A stretch of DNA of 64,000 nt from Acidimicrobiaceae bacterium (GCA_013044385.1 JABEUN010000005.1:1-64000), one strand, 5' to 3'. Shown: positions 13,126 through 24,252, numbered from the stretch's first letter. Numbers and translations are program-made. The notes: generated from the sequence alone by a model not told the origin.

Positions 13126-14187
13126 CTACTCCGATGACCTGGAACAAATAGACCCAATCGCATCTGCAAGTGAGCAGCTCAGGCCAGATGTGAGGATGGC
13201 ATCGGCAATCAATACAGCCGCAGCCGTATAGCTCGATCGCTCATGACCTGGGAAGGTCCGGCCCGACTCATATGCGAATCCAGTGAAGTAAGACCCGTCG
13301 GAATCCCTGTAGCGTTGGGTAAGTGCTAGCAGACTTCTCGCCTGAATAGGAGAGGAGTTCAGCGCCAAGGCGGCTGCCATCTCAGATGTCTCTGCGGCAG
13401 TAGTCCATGCAGAACTAGACACACAAAGCACTCCCCACCCCGGAACGACCCTTACCGGGAGCATCCCCCGCAGCCTTGCACGAGCATCCGATGGTTCAAG
13501 GGCGCCTACTAACGAAGGGTAGTATCCATCCATTGCCCAATCTGATTTGTCCTCGAATAGAGAGGCATTCCCCAGGCAGGAACGAATGGCGATCGCGAGT
13601 CTGTCACGGGCCTGCGCCCAGTGTCGCGTCCTGACGCCTAGCATCTCACCGGCTATGACTGCAGCATCCAGTGATGAAAATATGGAAGAACAGCCCGTCA
13701 GAAGGGAACTCCCATAGACGTACCCTCCCGGATCAACAGCCCACGGAAAGGCTCCCGAGGGGAGTTGAAATTCCACAACAAAATCGACAGCCGCAGCTAT
13801 AGAAGGCCAAAGCTCTAGGGCGGTGTTCTGATCCATTCCCGCTGAGAGACACGCTAGAAAACCCATAGCAACGTAAGCACAGGTGTTCAGATCCCTCCGC
13901 GGCTCCTCGACTCCGATAGTAAGAAAGTACTGACAGAGAGAGCCATCTTTGTTCTGTACGCCGCAAAGCCACCTAAGTCCCGCTACTGCGGCTTCCAACT
14001 CACCTTTCATCGCGAGAGCAATGAGGGCCTCAGTGTGGTTCCAAGGGTCGGCATGGCCACCCTCGAACCAGGGGATCATGCCCGTATCAAGCTGGAGGTT
14101 ACAGAGGTAGCTGACCGTCAATTTGATCTCATCGGAACTTAGAAACCCTTCACTCCCGGCCTGAAATTCAGAGAGTGTCTGACTCAT
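13126..14187 (-). CDS. alpha/alpha-toroid (prenyltransferase/squalene cyclase-like) protein
   Basis: The 353 residues are built of repeated helices with QW-like motifs: LQLDTGMIPW near the N-terminus, VQNKDGSLCQYF at about 95, FQLPSGAFPW at about 155 and a final DSDGSYFTGF. This matches the alpha/alpha toroid shared by squalene/hopene cyclases and protein prenyltransferases. I see no DxDD catalytic motif and no prenyltransferase zinc site, so terpene cyclisation is not supported; it could bind or trim an isoprenoid or glycan. It overlaps the upstream methyltransferase by 4 bases (ATGA) and is the last gene of a coupled three-gene operon. No signal peptide is evident. Confidence 0.75.
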   Translation of the reverse strand: MSQTLSEFQAGSEGFLSSDEIKLTVSYLCNLQLDTGMIPWFEGGHADPWNHTEALIALAMKGELEAAVAGLRWLCGVQNKDGSLCQYFLTIGVEEPRRDLNTCAYVAMGFLACLSAGMDQNTALELWPSIAAAVDFVVEFQLPSGAFPWAVDPGGYVYGSSLLTGCSSIFSSLDAAVIAGEMLGVRTRHWAQARDRLAIAIRSCLGNASLFEDKSDWAMDGYYPSLVGALEPSDARARLRGMLPVRVVPGWGVLCVSSSAWTTAAETSEMAAALALNSSPIQARSLLALTQRYRDSDGSYFTGFAYESGRTFPGHERSSYTAAAVLIADAILTSGLSCSLADAIGSICSRSSE

Positions 14188-14915
14188 CCCAACCTGCCTT
14201 TTTCGTAAGGCTTCTGGGCGAATATGACTTGAGACTTTCCAAGTATCGGGTTGGCCAGACGCTCAAGGCGCCTCAGCCATGGAATCGGGGTGAACATGTC
14301 CTTCACCAAAAGTTCTTCGAAGCGATTGACAAGCGGATTGTCCTTTGTGTTGACCCCTGCCAAGCACTTCAGCCACCAGTAGGGGCTATGGATTGAGTGG
14401 ACTTTATCGAAGCCCAAGATTGTGAATCCGGCTCGCTCGACCAACTCTTTCAGCTCCATCCGGGTAAAGATACGTATGTGGCCGCCCTTTGCAGAGTGAT
14501 ACTCTTTCGAAATTCCCCAATTGACAAACTCTGGGAGGAAGCTCGGTACGGTCACAGCAAGGTTGCCCCCGGGTCGAAGTGTTCGACAGAGCTCGGAGAG
14601 AACCTTGGACTCTTCATCCAGGTGCTCGAGTACCTCAGCGCATATTGCGCCGTCGAAGACGCCATCATCGAACGGGAGGTTTCTTGCATCGGCGCTCAGG
14701 GTCGAAATAGCCGGCAGCTTGGCAAATTCGATTGACTTGCTGAGCTCATCTGAGTACCGGCTAATACCTCTCAGGTCGACGAGATCCAGATCAACGGCGA
14801 CGGATCTGATGCCACGCCGCATCGCCTCGAAACTATGTCTTCCCCCGCCCGCCCCCAGATCCAAAAGAAGGTCGCCCTCCTCGAGGTCCATTCGGTCGAA
14901 GTCTGCCGTAATCAC
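14184..14915 (-). CDS. class I SAM-dependent methyltransferase
   Basis: This methyltransferase has 243 residues. Motif I is LLLDLGAGGGRHSFEA (residues 18-33), followed by VAVDLD, LPFDDGVFDGAICAEVLEHL and LRPGGNLAVTVPSF, a Methyltransf_11-type core. The C-terminal third (RIFTRMELKELVERAGF, then a hydrophobic stretch YWWLKCLAG) may contact a lipid-linked substrate. It is the middle gene of a coupled operon, overlapping the glycosyltransferase by 4 bases upstream and the toroid gene by 4 bases downstream. The substrate is unknown; a lipid-linked or secreted glycan is inferred from neighbours only. Confidence 0.85.
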   Translation of the reverse strand: MITADFDRMDLEEGDLLLDLGAGGGRHSFEAMRRGIRSVAVDLDLVDLRGISRYSDELSKSIEFAKLPAISTLSADARNLPFDDGVFDGAICAEVLEHLDEESKVLSELCRTLRPGGNLAVTVPSFLPEFVNWGISKEYHSAKGGHIRIFTRMELKELVERAGFTILGFDKVHSIHSPYWWLKCLAGVNTKDNPLVNRFEELLVKDMFTPIPWLRRLERLANPILGKSQVIFAQKPYEKGRLG

Positions 14916-16264
14916 AGGTCCGCTGCCTTTGCATCTACGACGCCGAAATCCGAATCCACACTAATAGCTGAATGCTGGGGTGACCCGTCTAGTGCCTCGA
15001 GATACCTATCGACGGTTCCTAGGGCGGCTGCGCGCCAAGAGAAGCGTGACCTAGCCCTAATGATCGCCCTATGGGCCATACGTTCGGCAGACTCAGGCCC
15101 ATGAAGTAAGTCTGAAACAGCTGAGGCAAGGGCTCTGGCGTCTCCAGCCCTGACCACTCGCGCGCAGTCGCCATCCGCACCGGCGACTTCCGGAAGCGCT
15201 CCGCCATCTGACACCACCAGCGGAGCGCCACACGCCATCGCCTCAATAGTGGGCAGGCTGAAGCCTTCGTAAAGTGAAGGCACCACGGCCACCGATGCGG
15301 AGCTGTAAAGCCTGACCATCTCATCCTGGGTAACCTTCCCCAAGAACTCCACATATGGCGACAGGCCCAATCTCTCGACGCTACGTTGCACAGGAGAGTC
15401 GTCGCGTCTCTGCCCCATGATCTTTAAAACGATCGGCCGCTCACCTCCGGCCACGAGCATCTGCATCGCCTCAACTAGGACCGCCAGGCCCTTAAGTGGC
15501 ACGTCGGCCGACGCTGTAGTGACGATCAGGCCGGGCTGCCTGGCCTGATCCGGGATAGGACGGAAAGTGGTGGGGTCTACCCCTACTGGAACTACCCGCA
15601 TCTTGTTTCGCCCGATGCCCATCTCGCGCGAGATGTCCCTGGCGGAAGTGTCCGACACGGTGATTATGTGGTCAAGTCGATTGGCCACCTTGGTCTGCAT
15701 CCTCACGAATCCGTAGAATCGAGTCACCCCAAACTGTTCTTTGAAACCATCGGCGTGGTCGAGGCCAAGTTTCTTGTCAACTGTTATGGGGTGATGGATC
15801 GAAGCTACGACGGGCCAGCCCTGAGCTTGGAGTCTGAGGATTGACCAAGAGAGGCTCTGGTTGTCGTGAAGTATGTCGAACTCGGGCCGCCTATTCGACA
15901 AGAGAGAATAAAGCCGCTTCCCGAAAATCCTCGGTTCGGGGAAGCCGCCTGTGCACATTATCGCGAACTCCATAAGATCCCAGGAGTTCCTGAACTCGCG
16001 CAATTTTGGGATCCGGAATGGGTCATCCGGTCGGTAAAGGTCAAGGGAGGGTACTTCGGTGAGGCGAATCGAAAAATCGACCTCCGGGTATGGCTGACCG
16101 GAGAACACTTCGACATGGTGTCCGAGACTCTGCAGTTCTCTACTCAGGTATTTCGTATAAACACCCTGACCACCAGAGGTCGGATTTCCTCGATAGACAC
16201 TGAATGCAACCCTCAGTGGGCAACTTCCCGAAAGTTGAGCTTCACGTAACTCAGAATCAGACAC
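14912..16264 (-). CDS. GT4-family glycosyltransferase
   Basis: The enzyme is a retaining GT-B glycosyltransferase. The N-terminal domain opens with LRVAFSVYRGNPTSGGQGVYTKYL; the C-terminal nucleotide-sugar domain has the EX7E pattern in EGFSLPTIEAMACG and VVSDGGALPEV. The likely start is GTG at 16264 (MSDSELREAQ), overlapping the Nramp stop by 8 bases behind a GGGTGG site. A frame extending up to 16315 would overlap the carrier gene by 59 bases and is less likely. It is the first gene of the three-gene toroid operon and may be read through from the cation-transport genes. Confidence 0.9.
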   Translation of the reverse strand: MSDSELREAQLSGSCPLRVAFSVYRGNPTSGGQGVYTKYLSRELQSLGHHVEVFSGQPYPEVDFSIRLTEVPSLDLYRPDDPFRIPKLREFRNSWDLMEFAIMCTGGFPEPRIFGKRLYSLLSNRRPEFDILHDNQSLSWSILRLQAQGWPVVASIHHPITVDKKLGLDHADGFKEQFGVTRFYGFVRMQTKVANRLDHIITVSDTSARDISREMGIGRNKMRVVPVGVDPTTFRPIPDQARQPGLIVTTASADVPLKGLAVLVEAMQMLVAGGERPIVLKIMGQRRDDSPVQRSVERLGLSPYVEFLGKVTQDEMVRLYSSASVAVVPSLYEGFSLPTIEAMACGAPLVVSDGGALPEVAGADGDCARVVRAGDARALASAVSDLLHGPESAERMAHRAIIRARSRFSWRAAALGTVDRYLEALDGSPQHSAISVDSDFGVVDAKAADL

Positions 16265-17603
16265 CAAACCACCCAAGCACCGTCTGTATGACCAACAATG
16301 CTGAGAGGCTACCAATTAGTAACACCACGGCCAGCGCAATCTTTCTAAATATGGGACCATTTACATACTTGCCGAGCACTGCTTTTCTGTTGGCGAGCAC
16401 GAGTATGAACGCGAGGATCACTGGCGTGAGTATCCCCTGGATCACCTGGGTCCCTATCAGCAGGTTGATCAGATTGACCGGCAGAAGGCTTACCAGGGCC
16501 CCAAAGACCACCTGAGCAGTGAAGAGACCCAGAAATAACGGCGCCTCTCTGTACTTTCGTGAGACCGATCTCTCTACTCCCAGAGTCTCAGCCACCACAT
16601 AGGAGGTCGACAAGGGGACCACAGCACCTGCTAGTGCAGAAGCACCAAGTAGACCGAGCCCAAACAGGATCTCTGCGCCGCTCCCCGCCACGGGCTTAAG
16701 TGCCCGAGCCGCCTGTGCGGCCGAGGTCAAAGGTCCCGAACCACCGATCGTCGCTGCGGTGGCGATGATTATGAACATAGAAATCAGGTCTGCGAATATG
16801 GCACCGCCAACCGCGTCGATCCGCTCAAGCGGATACTCATCCGGCCCTATTCCCCTATCCACCACTCCTGCTGCACCGTACAGCTGCATATACGGCGAGA
16901 TAGTAGTTCCGATCAGTGCAACCCCGAGAAAGACGAAGTCCTTGGTGTAGACGAAGTGCGGAGTAATCGTCTGCACAAGTACGAGATGCCAATTCGGATT
17001 CCCGAGGATGGCGGCTATCGGGTAGGCAAAAAACGCCAGCGATAGCACTAGAAAGATGCGCTCAGCGTATCGATAGCTCCCGAAAAGCACCAAACCCCAT
17101 ATGACCAAAGCGGCGAGGGGAACCGAGATGTATCTGGACACACCGAACAATCCGAATGCTGCGCCTATGCCCGCAAACTCGGAGACGACTAGGCCAACGT
17201 TGGAAAGTAACAAGCAGACCATCGCAAGTCCGGTGAGACGAATCGAGAACTCTTCTCTGATCAAGGAACCCAGGCCCTTGCCGGTGATCGCTCCCAGGCG
17301 AGCAGCCATCTCCTGCATCACCACTAGCCCCACAGTTACAAGGACCATGAAGAAAAGTGTTCTATACCCGTACTGGGAGCCAGCAGAGGCATAGGTGGCG
17401 ACACCCCCGGCGTCATTCCCCGCATTTGCAGCAATAAGTCCAGGTCCAGCGGCTGCTAGGTAGACGAGAAACCTTCTACGACTTCTGACCTTGGGTTTCC
17501 CCTTGGCCCCGCTCGCTTCTCCAACGCTGACCGGTTTCGAAGCCTTTGCAGCCGCTCTTGTGGAGCGCAGATTTCTCAACTGTGTGACCTTCGACCTCTC
17601 CAT
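16257..17603 (-). CDS. Nramp-related divalent cation transporter with altered metal site
   Basis: This polytopic membrane protein (about 11 helices, 448 residues) has the LeuT-like Nramp fold. In helix 1 the canonical DPGN is replaced by DAGG (context GNDAGGVATYASAGSQYGY), and in helix 6 the canonical MPH is replaced by SPY (GTTISPYMQLYG). Loss of the binding-site Met and Asn is what I recall for Nramp-related Mg2+ transporters (NRMT), so Mg2+ is a better guess than Mn2+/Fe2+; this is inference. The chosen start, ATG at 17603, is 14 bases past the stop of the MgtE-N/CBS gene. An in-frame extension to 17720 would overlap that gene by 103 bases and begins with a non-family, basic stretch. Confidence 0.85.
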   Translation of the reverse strand: MERSKVTQLRNLRSTRAAAKASKPVSVGEASGAKGKPKVRSRRRFLVYLAAAGPGLIAANAGNDAGGVATYASAGSQYGYRTLFFMVLVTVGLVVMQEMAARLGAITGKGLGSLIREEFSIRLTGLAMVCLLLSNVGLVVSEFAGIGAAFGLFGVSRYISVPLAALVIWGLVLFGSYRYAERIFLVLSLAFFAYPIAAILGNPNWHLVLVQTITPHFVYTKDFVFLGVALIGTTISPYMQLYGAAGVVDRGIGPDEYPLERIDAVGGAIFADLISMFIIIATAATIGGSGPLTSAAQAARALKPVAGSGAEILFGLGLLGASALAGAVVPLSTSYVVAETLGVERSVSRKYREAPLFLGLFTAQVVFGALVSLLPVNLINLLIGTQVIQGILTPVILAFILVLANRKAVLGKYVNGPIFRKIALAVVLLIGSLSALLVIQTVLGWFGV

Positions 17604-17617
17604 CTGTGACCCAACTC

Positions 17618-18949
17618 CTAACGAAGCAGTCTCGGGAACACCGACCGACCTCTGTCCGGAAGGAGCGCCTCCACGACATCGTCGGCGAGGATACGTCCAA
17701 GAGGAATGCCAGCTGCACACACTAGAATCGAGGCTCTGCGAGACTCCATGAGCATCTGGGCGACCTCCAAGAGTGAAGCGTCAGGCTCAACAAATCCATT
17801 CGCATCATCGTCTCCAAGAAGTTCTCCTAGGGTCTGGTCGTCAGTCGCCACCAGGATCTCGAAAAGGGCAAGATCGCCGAGGAGGGCACCCGATTCATCG
17901 ACCACCACGACACCATCAACGTCGGAGCCATGATCTCCGACCTCTTTGAGCCTCTCACGCACCACTGCGACAGTCTCGCTAACCGAACCCCGGACCAAAA
18001 GGGTCGTCATGGCACCCCCCGCCGTGTCCTCTTCGAAGCTAAGTAAGGCATTCAGTTGGTCCGACTTGTCCCTATCCATGCGGGCCAACAAACCTTCCCT
18101 CTCACTATCATCTAGATCTCGCAGTGCGTCGACGGCCTCGTCCGGCTCCATCTGTGCCACGATTTCGGCCGCCATCTCAGGCTCTGACTGGCGGAGCAGT
18201 GTCTCAAGCTCATCTGCCTCCATCTCCTCCAGCGCGTCTGCGGCGATATCGGTGTCGAGAACTTCGAGGAGGCTCTGCCTTTCGGCCCTTCCAAGATTCT
18301 CAAGCAAGTCAGCAAGATCGGCCGGCCTAAGCCGCTCGATCCCACCCGAACTGTCGCGCAACTTCAAGTCTCGTCCGACCCCATCAAAAGGAGCGATCGA
18401 TGCCCAGTCAACGACACTCTCGGGTGTGGGTCTGATCCTAAAACGGGCGGGGCCAATCCTTCTCAGCAGCGATGAGAAGGAGATATCCACTCCAACTAGC
18501 CGGACTCGCCCGAGCACTCTAGCCAGGTATAAGTCGGCCGCCCGGATCACCTTGATACCGTCAACGTCAACTAGCTGATGGTCGAGAACATCCCTTGCTA
18601 GCAGCACTTCGCCCTTGCGGCGCTTAAAGTCGCGCAGGTCGACCTTCGACTTCTTGAGCTCGATCCGATTCGGCTCGATCGTAGCGACCCTTTCAAAGTC
18701 CAAAAAGGTGAGTCGCCTTCCGACTTTGACAACGACGCCGGTCACCGGTGGGTAGTCCGAATCCTTCGACCAACGGGCGACGAAGTCGACGAGGGACCCT
18801 ATCTCGGCACCGTTCTGTATGTAGACCGGCCTACCAATCAGACCAGCGACTGAGATAATCGACTCCCGCACCGAGCGTATCGACGTGACGCGCTGACTTC
18901 GAGATCGGGAAAACGGCCTGTGTATCAGTAGATTGGGCGCCTTTGCCAA
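17618..18949 (-). CDS. soluble MgtE-N / CBS-domain protein with PRC-barrel-like N-terminus
   Basis: This protein lacks the MgtE membrane channel but has its cytosolic sensory parts. The first half contains PRC-barrel-like beta segments (IGRPVYIQNGAEIGSLVDF; LLARDVLDHQLVDVDGIKV). An MgtE-N helical domain follows (LRPADLADLLENLGRAERQ to about residue 300), then a CBS pair (TAGGAMTTLLV to the end). In MgtE these domains sense Mg2+. The best start is TTG at 18949, 8 bases after a GGAGGAGGG site; an upstream GTG at 18985 is less likely. It sits directly before the Nramp-like carrier, suggesting it regulates that carrier in response to Mg2+ or another cation. Confidence 0.85.
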   Translation of the reverse strand: MAKAPNLLIHRPFSRSRSQRVTSIRSVRESIISVAGLIGRPVYIQNGAEIGSLVDFVARWSKDSDYPPVTGVVVKVGRRLTFLDFERVATIEPNRIELKKSKVDLRDFKRRKGEVLLARDVLDHQLVDVDGIKVIRAADLYLARVLGRVRLVGVDISFSSLLRRIGPARFRIRPTPESVVDWASIAPFDGVGRDLKLRDSSGGIERLRPADLADLLENLGRAERQSLLEVLDTDIAADALEEMEADELETLLRQSEPEMAAEIVAQMEPDEAVDALRDLDDSEREGLLARMDRDKSDQLNALLSFEEDTAGGAMTTLLVRGSVSETVAVVRERLKEVGDHGSDVDGVVVVDESGALLGDLALFEILVATDDQTLGELLGDDDANGFVEPDASLLEVAQMLMESRRASILVCAAGIPLGRILADDVVEALLPDRGRSVFPRLLR

Positions 18950-19266
18950 CGGACCCTCCTCCGAACTAACGGGAAGGCTCCGCACGCCTGCTCGACTACG
19001 TCGTTACTCAGAAAGCGACGACTGAACCATACAGGGCACTGGAGCATTCCGAATCATTATGCGACTTTCTCTTACCTGAAGTGAGGTACTCGGGGGTTCA
19101 TCGAGATTCAAAGGGCACCTCCCCTTGTTGGCTAGATCGGAAGACAAAAAACCGGCTCAGGCCGACTAACCCGTACAGGTGCAGCATAAACCGTATGTAA
19201 AGATAGCAGACCGATGTCCGCTCGATCACTGGAATCAGTTCAACGATCCAGAGGGATGGTCCTTGT
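18950..19266. other. 317-base intergenic region upstream of the MgtE-N gene
   Basis: This stretch should hold the promoter of the cation-transport operon on the minus strand and the end of the methyltransferase gene. I looked for an M-box-like Mg2+ riboswitch and could not recognise its conserved sequence blocks. A weak inverted repeat (TACCT/AGGTA) lies near 19074-19090. Nothing else is supported. Confidence 0.3.
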
Positions 19267-20154: not shown

Positions 20155-21276
20155 GTGACTGAAAACACTCAACTAGAAAAGAGCTACGAGTCTGAGCGCC
20201 AACTTGGACTCGGTAGCAGATCAGGAAAGAGAAGTGCCCTTACGACGAGTTTAGTGCTTGTCCTGGGCGGGCTGCTTGCAGCTTGCGGGTCTGCTTCGGC
20301 TACAGCGTCGGGAACGACGTCTTCGTCAAAAGCTCCGGCACCAACACTTGTCGTCTACTCCGCTCAGGGCTATGACGCTTCGACCGTCCAAGCTTTCCAC
20401 AAGGCGACGGGCATTCCCGTCTCCCTCGACGACGACTCAACGGGACCGCTTTTGACGAAGATCCAAGCAGAGGCGTCAAATCCAAAGTGGGGCGTGCTCT
20501 GGGTCGACGGCGACGAGGCATTCGCTGCCATGGACCAGCAGGGAATGCTGCTTAAAGGTTGGGAGCCAAATGTGAGCTTCAACTCAAGCGGCACGGCCCT
20601 GATTCCGGCCGACAAGAGTTACATCCCAACCGGACTCACCATGGCCGGCACCCTCGTCTACAACTCGTCCGTCGTAACGAGTCCACCTAAGACGTGGGCC
20701 GACCTCCTTTCGCCGCAATGGAAAGGTCAGATCGGAATGAACGATCCCGCCGTCTCCGGGCCAACCTTCCCATTCGTCGCAGGAATGATGAACTACCTAG
20801 GAGGGGTCAACCAGGGGGAGACCTTCTTCAGTCAGCTCAAGTCGAACGGACTTCAGGTGTTCCAGACCAACGGCGACACACTGCACGCACTTGAGTCCGG
20901 CCAGATAAAGCTCGCACTTATCCAGAGTTCTGCTGGGATCGGTGCCGGAATCAAGGCACCCGGGATCAAAACGGTATTCCTTGCCCCTTCCACCCCGATA
21001 CCGGGTGTCATTGGAATCGATGCAAAGATGCCTCCTGCCGTTATCGCTGAAGCCAAGAAGTTTGTCGAGTTCGTGCTATCCCCTGCTGGTCAGAGGGCAA
21101 TGCAGTCCGGCGATCCTACAGGCGATTCGCTCTACTGGCCAGTCATAAACGGAGTGAGTCCGCTTCCGGCAGTCCCGCCATTAAGCAGCGTCACCACACA
21201 GGTGATAGATCCGTACAAGTGGGGTCCGCAGGAGGGCACCATCAACACTTGGTTCACTAACAACATCGTTGGGTAG
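20155..21276 (+). CDS. ABC transporter substrate-binding lipoprotein, Fe(III) type
   Basis: The N-terminus is a lipoprotein signal: a basic segment, the hydrophobic run SLVLVLGGLLAAC and the lipidated Cys44. It has a long 26-residue lead, so the start (GTG 20155) may lie further in. The mature part (PTLVVYSAQGYDASTVQAF...) is a class II periplasmic-binding fold like FbpA/AfuA, which bind ferric iron; relatives bind thiamine or phosphonates. It is the first gene of a five-gene operon, ending 3 bases before the permease. No Fur-like operator was recognised in the 20041-20154 spacer, which also serves the divergent methyltransferase. Confidence 0.88.
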   Translation: MTENTQLEKSYESERQLGLGSRSGKRSALTTSLVLVLGGLLAACGSASATASGTTSSSKAPAPTLVVYSAQGYDASTVQAFHKATGIPVSLDDDSTGPLLTKIQAEASNPKWGVLWVDGDEAFAAMDQQGMLLKGWEPNVSFNSSGTALIPADKSYIPTGLTMAGTLVYNSSVVTSPPKTWADLLSPQWKGQIGMNDPAVSGPTFPFVAGMMNYLGGVNQGETFFSQLKSNGLQVFQTNGDTLHALESGQIKLALIQSSAGIGAGIKAPGIKTVFLAPSTPIPGVIGIDAKMPPAVIAEAKKFVEFVLSPAGQRAMQSGDPTGDSLYWPVINGVSPLPAVPPLSSVTTQVIDPYKWGPQEGTINTWFTNNIVG

Positions 21277-21279
21277 GTT

Positions 21280-23073
21280 ATGACATCCGTTGTTGAACAA
21301 CGAACTCAGGTTCAAACGGAGTTGACGGGAGGGCGCAGGGGAGATAGTCCCCGCGCCCTCCTAGTTGCGCTACCGAACCTTCCATCTCTCCTTCTCTGGG
21401 TGGTCTTGGCACTGCTCCTGATCGTTCCTGTGCTGGCATTCCTTGGTCAGGCGGTCATTCCGGGCCTGTTCGGTACCTCCAAGGCTCTCTCAGGTCTGCA
21501 ATCATTTAAGTTGGCCCTGACGGGACCAACATTCAGAGGAATCCTCGACTCACTTATAGTCTCCGTATCATCTGCAACCTTGGCGATGCTGAGCGCACTT
21601 GGACTCGCATGGCTAACACAGAGAACTAACGTAATCGGCAAGAAATCGTGGTCGATGGCGGTTTGGATACTCCTGCTGGTTCCAACCTACCTAGTGACCG
21701 AGGGTTGGCAGAGGCTGATCGAACCGCACGGTGTCCTCTACAACATCGGCATCAACTCGTCCGGGTTCTACCATGTATTCTTCGGACCTGTCGGAGTAAT
21801 AGTCGTACTCACCACGTCGGGAACTCCATTTGCATACCTCGCGATCAGCTCGGCGCTCCTCGGACTCGGCTCAGAGTTCGAAGATGCCGTACGAGTACAC
21901 GGCGGAGGTATCTTCCAGACAGCAAGAGTTGTAATTCCCATAATCGCCCCGGCGATCATGTCAGCGCTGGCCATAGTATTCGCCGAATCGATGAGCGACT
22001 TTGGCGTCGCCTCCACGCTTGCCGCCCAGGCCAACTTCCCAGTCGCCACCTATTCACTTTTCAACGCCATCGACTCCTTCCCTCTCAACTTCGGCGTCGC
22101 CGCAGCCATTGGCTGGATCCTTGTCGCAGCAGCAGCCATACCAATTGCAGTTCAGTCGAGGGCACTCAAAGGAAAAAGCTACGAGGTTCTCTCTGGTCGT
22201 ACTAGGAGGCCGAGAATGGTAGCGCTCGGACGAAAAGGTCAGGCCCTAGCACTCATCGCTCTGCTCGCATATTTCGGAATCGCTCTCGGAGTGCCAGCAA
22301 TCGGCGTGGTCAGTGCTTCGTTACTCTCTAACTTCGGTGCATCCTTCACGACCCATGCCCTCACACTTGGCAACTACCGGAAGGTTCTCCACTCGTCGAC
22401 CCTCTTTGCACCGTTGACTTTATCTTCCGCACTATCTTTCGTAACTGCAACTGGAGCCGCCATACTCGGCGTTGCCGTGGCGAGGGTGATGACAAATCGA
22501 CGGGCCAAGGCCGCCGCCCGCCTGGTCGACTTGGTCATGCTGGGATCTGTCGCACTGCCCGCTATCGTGCTCGCCGCCGGCTACATCTTCTTCTACAATC
22601 TGCCGGTCATGTCAACATTCGGGATCAACATATATGGGACCACCAAACTCCTGGCTCTCGGCTACCTGGCTGGCGCCCTGCCATCCGCCGCTCGACTCCT
22701 GGTCGGACCGGTGTCCCAAATCCAGTCAAACCTCAGGGACGCAGCGCGAGTGCACGGAGCAAATGGACGCGTTAGCTGGATAAAGGCACAGCTCCCACTA
22801 TTGGCACGACCCGTACTCTGGGCGTGGTTGCTTACCTTCTCGAAGACGCTGCTGGAACTCCCGCTCTCTCAACTCCTCTACGCACCGAACTTTCCGCCAA
22901 TTTCGGTCTCGATTAACAAACTCACCGCCGGCTATGACTTCGGCGGAGGTACTGCGATGTCGGTCTTGGCTTTGATACTCGCATTCGGCGTGATTCTCAT
23001 CGTCATGGGTCTCTTCAAGCTGTTGACACCCAAAGGTTGGCAACGTGTCGGTGGCGGATACACGCCCAAGTAA
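21280..23073 (+). CDS. ABC transporter permease, fused double domain (FbpB/ThiP-like)
   Basis: This is a 597-residue membrane protein with two homologous six-helix halves. Each half carries an EAA coupling loop: DAVRVHGGGIFQTARVVI at about 205-222 and DAARVHGANGRVSW at about 487-500. This fused architecture is typical of Fe(III), thiamine and 2-aminoethylphosphonate importers. The first 25 residues are cytosolic. It starts at ATG 21280, 3 bases after the binding-protein stop, and the ATPase starts 12 bases after its stop, so the three work as one importer. Confidence 0.93.
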   Translation: MTSVVEQRTQVQTELTGGRRGDSPRALLVALPNLPSLLLWVVLALLLIVPVLAFLGQAVIPGLFGTSKALSGLQSFKLALTGPTFRGILDSLIVSVSSATLAMLSALGLAWLTQRTNVIGKKSWSMAVWILLLVPTYLVTEGWQRLIEPHGVLYNIGINSSGFYHVFFGPVGVIVVLTTSGTPFAYLAISSALLGLGSEFEDAVRVHGGGIFQTARVVIPIIAPAIMSALAIVFAESMSDFGVASTLAAQANFPVATYSLFNAIDSFPLNFGVAAAIGWILVAAAAIPIAVQSRALKGKSYEVLSGRTRRPRMVALGRKGQALALIALLAYFGIALGVPAIGVVSASLLSNFGASFTTHALTLGNYRKVLHSSTLFAPLTLSSALSFVTATGAAILGVAVARVMTNRRAKAAARLVDLVMLGSVALPAIVLAAGYIFFYNLPVMSTFGINIYGTTKLLALGYLAGALPSAARLLVGPVSQIQSNLRDAARVHGANGRVSWIKAQLPLLARPVLWAWLLTFSKTLLELPLSQLLYAPNFPPISVSINKLTAGYDFGGGTAMSVLALILAFGVILIVMGLFKLLTPKGWQRVGGGYTPK

Positions 23074-23085
23074 GGAGCACAAAGA

Positions 23086-24252
23086 TTGATCAACGCCGCA
23101 CAGGAAGTCCGGCTGAAAGCAGTAACCAAGTCCTACGGAAAGCAGAAGAAGGCGCTCTCTGCTGTCTCGATGATGGTTGAGCCGGGATCCTTCACGGTCC
23201 TACTGGGTCCATCTGGCTCTGGAAAAACGACGCTACTCAGGTCGATAGCCGGCATTGAACGGATATCCGATGGCGAGATATGGATCGGTGGCCAAGCCGT
23301 CGCCAAGGGGACCTCGAAGCACCTTCCGCCCGAGCGCCGTGGGCTCGCCATGGTGTTTCAGGACTACGCGCTCTGGCCACACATGAAGGTTTGGGAGAAT
23401 GTCGCCTTCCCGCTCAAAAGGCAAAAGGTGGCAAAAGAACCCACACGTGCATCGGCATTCGAGATGCTGGAGCGGGTCGGGCTCGCACAGCACACCGAGA
23501 AGTATCCCAACGAACTCTCAGGCGGCGAACAGCAGAGGGTCGCCCTCGCAAGAGCGCTAGTGGCCAGTCCGGGTCTCGTTCTGTTCGACGAGCCACTTTC
23601 CAATCTTGATGCAGATCTCCGAGAGAGAATGAGGATCGAAATCGCTACACTAACTAGGGAGAGCGGCGCCACTTCAATCTACATAACTCATGACCAGGCG
23701 GAAGCTTTCGCACTCTCAGACCAAGTCGGCGTCCTCGAGCGTGGCCGACTCGTGCAGTTTGGAGAACCCGAGGAGATCTATAACTCCCCGGCAACGGAGT
23801 TCGTTGCCCGCTTCACCGGGATAGCTGGTGAGGTATCGGCCGCCTGTACAGACCAAACAGGTCCAGCCGAAATCGGCGTAATTGTGCCTCACGGGTTCGG
23901 ACCGACCATACGTGCAAGATCAAACGGAAAGTTTACTGCGGGAGATCCTGTTCGGATTCTGCTCAGGCCATCCGCCGTCCAGATCTGTGACCCATTCGGC
24001 GATCAGGCCCAACTATCTGCTATTGTCCGTGACGTGGCGTTCCGGGGAAGGGGATATGAGGTTGCACTCTCACTTCAAGACGGAACCCAGCTAAACTCAG
24101 TCTTCAGTTCGCACCGGATGAAGCGCGGTGAGTCGGTTGGTGTCAGGCTCGACTCCGAGGGATGTTTGACCTTTTCCGCATTGGGCGAGCTCGCCCCGCC
24201 ATCTCCTATGATCGATCTTCCTGAAAGTTCGGAAAGGGAATTACAGCCATGA
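23086..24252 (+). CDS. ABC transporter ATP-binding protein, Fe(III)/polyamine type
   Basis: This is the ATPase of the importer. Visible are Walker A GPSGSGKTT (about 44-52), Q-loop FQDYALWPHM, signature LSGGEQQRVALARAL, Walker B LVLFDEP, D-loop SNLD and switch His in ITHDQAEA. A TOBE-type regulatory domain fills the last 130 residues. The start is TTG at 23086, supported by AAGGAG 8 bases upstream. The stop overlaps the next gene by 4 bases (ATGA). The FbpC-like assignment follows family resemblance and the operon; the substrate is not proven. Confidence 0.94.
   Translation: MINAAQEVRLKAVTKSYGKQKKALSAVSMMVEPGSFTVLLGPSGSGKTTLLRSIAGIERISDGEIWIGGQAVAKGTSKHLPPERRGLAMVFQDYALWPHMKVWENVAFPLKRQKVAKEPTRASAFEMLERVGLAQHTEKYPNELSGGEQQRVALARALVASPGLVLFDEPLSNLDADLRERMRIEIATLTRESGATSIYITHDQAEAFALSDQVGVLERGRLVQFGEPEEIYNSPATEFVARFTGIAGEVSAACTDQTGPAEIGVIVPHGFGPTIRARSNGKFTAGDPVRILLRPSAVQICDPFGDQAQLSAIVRDVAFRGRGYEVALSLQDGTQLNSVFSSHRMKRGESVGVRLDSEGCLTFSALGELAPPSPMIDLPESSERELQP

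Follow-up and report, generated by a model that had tools for sequence, protein, structure and literature searches.

The systems closest to the locus discussed here are the NrmT loci reported by Shin et al. in 2014 (PMC4072509) and the carrier EleNRMT of Eggerthella lenta (structure 7QIA; PMC8806188). An MgtE-N-only gene was found beside most NrmT genes and feedback regulation was proposed, as was a chaperone activity for the MgtE-like fragment; M-box riboswitch control concerned only a subset of the NrmT-associated MgtE-like family. EleNRMT transports Mg2+ and Mn2+ but not Ca2+, and does so without proton coupling. Here we analyse a pair of genes of the same two families, an Nramp-related carrier and a detached MgtE-type sensor, located in a 64,000-nucleotide stretch of DNA from an Acidimicrobiaceae bacterium (GCA_013044385.1, JABEUN010000005.1:1-64000; hereafter the window). 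We consider it reasonably probable that they form a two-gene Mg2+ uptake unit, in which an uncoupled carrier of the NRMT type is throttled by its Mg2+-sensing partner.

The first-pass annotation of the window had suggested a two-part Mg2+ system in which a detached MgtE sensor gates an Nramp carrier. The carrier type is well supported and the linkage of the genes holds, but not the novelty, since both the pairing of NrmT with MgtE-N and the idea of feedback gating have been known since 2014; the suggestion is a rediscovery, and gating is still a proposal. In the literature collection searched from 2015 on for NrmT or NRMT together with MgtE, the EleNRMT paper alone was found, and no experimental follow-up of the fragment. 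The window pair resembles those of Shin et al. (the Ca_c0685 operon of C. acetobutylicum and the A. capsulatum pair) in that the same two families adjoin and the same feedback hypothesis applies. It differs from the pairs as described in the available text by the lack of an M-box, by a sensor that is a single gene with PRC-like barrels, and by a serine in alpha-6 (SPY). What is new here is a strict, DAGG-specific pairing, the retention of Mg2+ ligands in the sensor, a contrast with the distribution of MgtE channels and a second pairing with DUF1003 proteins, none of which is described in the available portion of that paper.

The carrier gene

Both genes lie on the minus strand where the first-pass annotation had placed them, within 16257-18949, and the motif changes that it had read in the carrier are indeed seen.

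16257..17603, minus strand: NRMT-type Nramp-related carrier, 448 residues, ATG start at 17603, stop at 16257
17403..17414, minus strand: alpha-1 motif DAGG (DPGN in classical Nramps), residues 64-67; D64 is the retained metal-site Asp
16890..16898, minus strand: alpha-6 motif SPY (MPH in classical Nramps), residues 236-238; the metal-site Met is absent
17178..17180, minus strand: E142 in a SEFAG stretch; in the alignment it matches the EleNRMT alpha-3 glutamate (assumed to be Glu133)

The protein matches the Nramp family in Pfam (2e-77) and falls below the NCBIfam cut-off for MntH (118 of 430 bits). When solved structures are searched, EleNRMT is the best match, at E 2.5e-105 as compared to 4.5e-15 for the best MntH, with 44% identity over the aligned residues. 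The two proteins have in common the DAGG motif, the alpha-3 glutamate, the LeuT-fold and the absence of the alpha-6b histidines; both histidines of proton-coupled Nramps are missing in the window carrier, which has Tyr and Gly instead. In alpha-6, EleNRMT has APW and the window carrier SPY, i.e. a TxxS segment, so that Ser replaces the Ala or Thr of the NRMT consensus TxxA/T (PMC8806188); a close relative (L005) has Thr. The same text, as far as available, mentions no partner protein for EleNRMT. The homology argues well for a Mg2+-type Nramp relative, as the first-pass annotation had supposed, and by analogy with EleNRMT we infer that the substrate is probably Mg2+ and that proton coupling is probably lacking.

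The sensor gene

17618..18949, minus strand: detached MgtE-type sensor gene, 443 residues; PRC-like barrels, MgtE_N and CBS pair, without channel
18389..18850, minus strand: two PRC-like beta barrels, residues 34-187 (AF2 strands 41-98 and 114-155; PRC matches in the family)
18026..18331, minus strand: MgtE_N domain, residues 207-308 (Pfam 3e-23)
17660..18025, minus strand: CBS pair, residues 309-430; truncated start of the plug helix after D424, then a conserved FPRLL tail
18236..18238, minus strand: D238, equivalent to E59 of T. thermophilus MgtE (Mg7 ligand)
18140..18142, minus strand: D270, equivalent to MgtE D91 (Mg4 ligand)
18128..18130, minus strand: D274, equivalent to MgtE D95 (Mg6 ligand)
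17678..17680, minus strand: D424, equivalent to MgtE D247 (Mg4 ligand)

The gene starts with a TTG at 18949, ahead of which there is a Shine-Dalgarno-like stretch, GGAGGAGGG. Its stop codon (17620-17618) is separated by 14 nt from the ATG of the carrier, and an AGGAG overlaps the sensor stop region.

The claim that the upstream gene encodes just the sensing parts of MgtE is borne out: the MgtE_N match comes with a weak CBS match, and no MgtE channel domain (PF01769) was found in the gene or in the whole window genome. In a Foldseek comparison of the AF2 model with known structures, MgtE cytosolic domains were the top matches (TMt ~0.82). The label "PRC-like" fits the family, 19 of 40 members having a PRC match in Pfam (best 7e-6, at residues ~14-88), and it fits two stretches of the AF2 model that look like beta barrels, but the window protein itself has no Pfam match to PRC.

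The metal sites were located by alignment to T. thermophilus MgtE, for which a residue-site map exists (PMC5882242), and their conservation was scored over 49 sensors. E59 is replaced by D, D91 and D247 are kept and D95 is D or E, all four being near-invariant. These Mg4, Mg6 and Mg7 acids make up four of the six acidic columns that are conserved at 95% or more (hypergeometric p 9e-4). In the window sensor R404 stands in place of the Mg5 acid D226, a position occupied by R or N in the NRMT-linked sensors, with a copy from Gottesmanbacteria as the sole exception. The ATP-pocket residues of MgtE (PMC5529423) are also lost, Y170, R187 and F227 corresponding to G346, F363 and R405. In comparison to the cytosolic domains of MgtE (T. 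thermophilus 2YVY/2ZY9, E. faecalis 2OUX), the sensor shares the fold of the N and CBS domains and the Mg4/Mg6/Mg7 acids, but it lacks the channel, D226 and the ATP-pocket residues, its plug helix is short, and PRC-like barrels are present at the N end.

Linkage of the two genes

The association of the two families is not confined to the window, and the idea of the first-pass annotation, which would have failed had the families been unlinked in other genomes, comes through this check strongly. Of the 53 sensor matches in a survey of 60 related genomes, 43 have an Nramp-family gene no more than 1.1 kb away. The arrangement of these pairs varies: 24 are co-directional with the sensor first, 16 convergent, two divergent and one has the carrier first. 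Linkage follows the carrier type. Carriers with DAGG, combined with APW or SPY, adjoin a sensor in 43 of 47 cases, three of the four exceptions being at contig edges (one partial carrier with its alpha-1 motif off the contig was excluded from the motif count), whereas none of the 27 carriers of other types (DAGS/DVGS-MPW, DPSG-SPY, DAGA-APW, DIGD-TPY) is linked to a sensor. Fisher's test gives p 3e-16 for this difference; the sequences are related and the test overstates their independence, but the linked DAGG carriers span 13 genera in six families. The pair is also found in a Gottesmanbacteria metagenome-assembled genome (MAG) and on plasmids of named Bacillota, Pseudomonadota and Actinomycetota (Leifsonia, Mycolicibacterium, Cellulomonas, Arthrobacter, Alicyclobacillus and Citrobacter), where the carriers that adjoin a sensor are of the DAGG or DAGA type.

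Even sampling of the class (247 genomes) yielded 72 full-length detached sensors, 71 of which have an Nramp or a DUF1003 gene as neighbour. A direct search for the MgtE channel domain in the same genomes gave seven positives among 69 genomes with a detached sensor and 147 among 178 without. MgtE channels are depleted in the detached-sensor genomes, a descriptive contrast between sets that differ in lineage, made with no tree-aware test.

As regards the plasmid pairs (L165, L166, L167, L169, L171), MgtC/SapB genes are nearby in Leifsonia and Mycolicibacterium, ArsR and heavy-metal P-type ATPases in Cellulomonas and Citrobacter, and ArsR in Arthrobacter. The DAGA carriers with a sensor occur on three plasmids. 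Five long open frames were considered as possible sensor-carrier fusions and none was confirmed: G043 (1196 aa) consists of two genes on opposite strands, and in G093, G108, G150 and G253 the two genes have frames of unequal length.

A second partner of the sensor

Among the 72 sensors of the class sample, 48 adjoin an Nramp gene and 23 a DUF1003 gene on the same strand; one is at a contig end, and none adjoins both. In other words, DUF1003 directly adjoins the sensor in 23 of the 24 cases that lack an Nramp neighbour. Examples, given as genome, contig and positions, are:

G037:C1:22838-23134: DUF1003 gene beside a sensor, same strand
G039:C196:52378-52677: DUF1003 gene beside a sensor, same strand
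G041:C1:4709422-4709727: DUF1003 gene beside a sensor, same strand
G042:C45:18825-19121: DUF1003 gene beside a sensor, same strand

DUF1003 is a short membrane protein for which AF2 predicts two transmembrane helices and a long cytosolic helix; in the literature collection searched, two papers alone name it. A CorA-like fold was considered for this arrangement, but Foldseek gave no match in the PDB and the candidate was dropped.

The sensors linked to DUF1003 retain all six ligands in the five cases examined, so the loss of the Mg5 acid appears, on this small DUF1003 sample (n=5), to track the membrane partner. It is possible, and we put it forward tentatively, that the detached sensor works as a plug-in Mg2+ regulator for two unrelated membrane partners, the NRMT and the DUF1003 proteins; since the NRMT-linked sensors lack the Mg5 acid and the DUF1003-linked ones keep all six ligands, it would then have been retuned for each partner, and DUF1003 might be an unrecognised Mg2+-regulated transporter, channel or regulator. 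The pairing is in any case a lead on a widespread family that has no assigned function. DUF1003-like proteins may also pair directly with Nramp relatives, to judge from gene neighbourhoods. A weak, below-cut-off DUF1003-like match was seen near unlinked DAGS/MPW Nramp relatives (G012:C57, G022:C94, G031:C303).

Proposed mechanism and alternative explanations

We propose that the carrier is a LeuT-fold NRMT through which partly hydrated Mg2+ would follow its electrochemical gradient into the cell, with no coupling to protons. An uncoupled carrier of this sort would have no built-in brake. At high intracellular Mg2+ the N and CBS domains of the cytosolic sensor would close on Mg2+ at Mg4, Mg6 and Mg7, as in MgtE, and the closed sensor might then bind and throttle the carrier via a specialised CBS surface, the tail or the PRC-like barrels; the physical contact and the inhibition are only what we infer. 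A carrier that admits Mg2+ without energy coupling would need a brake; for this purpose a protein may have been taken over from an unrelated channel and kept under a gene of its own. With the strict pairing, the retained residues and the lack of another recognised Mg2+ importer in the window genome (95% complete; no CorA, MgtE channel or MgtA above cut-off), the feedback hypothesis of 2014 becomes directly testable.

Several observations weigh against this proposal. The exclusion of MgtE channels is phylogenetically structured. No M-box or other Rfam riboswitch was found in the window, none in the leader between hairpin and sensor at E<=5, and none at the gathering threshold in 20 related loci, so riboswitch control of the pair was rejected. 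Retention of the sensor ligands is not necessarily enough for Mg2+ switching. DPSG-SPY carriers share the DxxG-TxxS pattern yet are unlinked to a sensor, which means that the presence of a sensor goes with the DAGG clade rather than with the motif itself. EcoDMT mutated to the NRMT site did not transport Mg2+ (PMC8806188), hence the motif alone is no proof. Shin et al. (PMC4072509) add that the NrmT of A. capsulatum gave full rescue for Mn2+ and rescue for Mg2+ only at low millimolar concentrations, that the C. acetobutylicum NrmT is functional without its fragment, and that co-expression of the MgtE-like fragment in the A. capsulatum case, the only such test in the paper, had no effect on the rescue of the Mg2+ defect.

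The A. capsulatum carrier behaved mainly as a Mn2+ transporter, which means that pairing alone does not imply Mg2+ specificity. The carrier of the window could likewise be mainly a Mn2+ importer, or a broad divalent transporter, with a sensor that responds to Mn2+ or to the general divalent load; this was proposed for the A. capsulatum pair, it agrees with Mn2+ transport by EleNRMT, and some plasmid copies lie within heavy-metal islands. We regard it as rather unlikely for the window pair, as the binding site matches EleNRMT and not the classical Nramps, the sensor has kept Mg2+ ligands of MgtE and no other recognised Mg2+ importer is found in the genome. A mode of action other than gating is also not very likely in our opinion. 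The sensor might assist the insertion or stability of the carrier, buffer cytosolic Mg2+ or act as an ion chaperone, in line with the chaperone suggestion of Shin et al., or provide membrane anchoring through its PRC-like barrels; the plug helix, which is the gating element in MgtE, is cut short, the Mg5 acid is lost in all but one of the NRMT-linked sensors, and the null result with the A. capsulatum fragment points in the same direction. On the other hand, almost all sensors keep the Mg4/Mg6/Mg7 acids, which lock the N to the CBS domains in MgtE, and a brake that acts at high Mg2+ would escape any rescue assay done at low Mg2+. As a brake would give no growth gain at low Mg2+, the published null result neither excludes nor supports throttling of the carrier by the sensor.

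That the genes are chance neighbours, or share a conserved order without functional coupling, is extremely improbable. In close relatives the synteny does extend to the GT4 glycosyltransferase, the methyltransferase and a further gene (window 13126-14187), so part of the gene order is simply inherited. However, the pair recurs in different phyla, with the genes arranged co-directionally, convergently or divergently, and among the relatives the pairing is restricted to DAGG carriers; given the linkage counts in the relatives and in the class sample, chance adjacency was rejected.

Genomic context

The window genome contains a second Nramp relative, of the DAGA/APW type, which has no sensor (L002, G000:C77:21754-22818). 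One further feature lies next to the pair:

19150..19167, minus strand: terminator-like hairpin, upstream of the sensor and after the preceding methyltransferase gene

The stop codon of the carrier overlaps the apparent GTG start of the GT4 glycosyltransferase gene, after which come a methyltransferase gene and another gene (window 13126-16263); the same three lie downstream of the pair in two named actinobacterial MAGs as well (L004, L005). Upstream of the pair, an ABC transporter operon (substrate-binding protein, permease and ATPase) occupies window 20155-24252 on the opposite strand and, judged by eye from the translations, resembles the ferric-iron or thiamine type.

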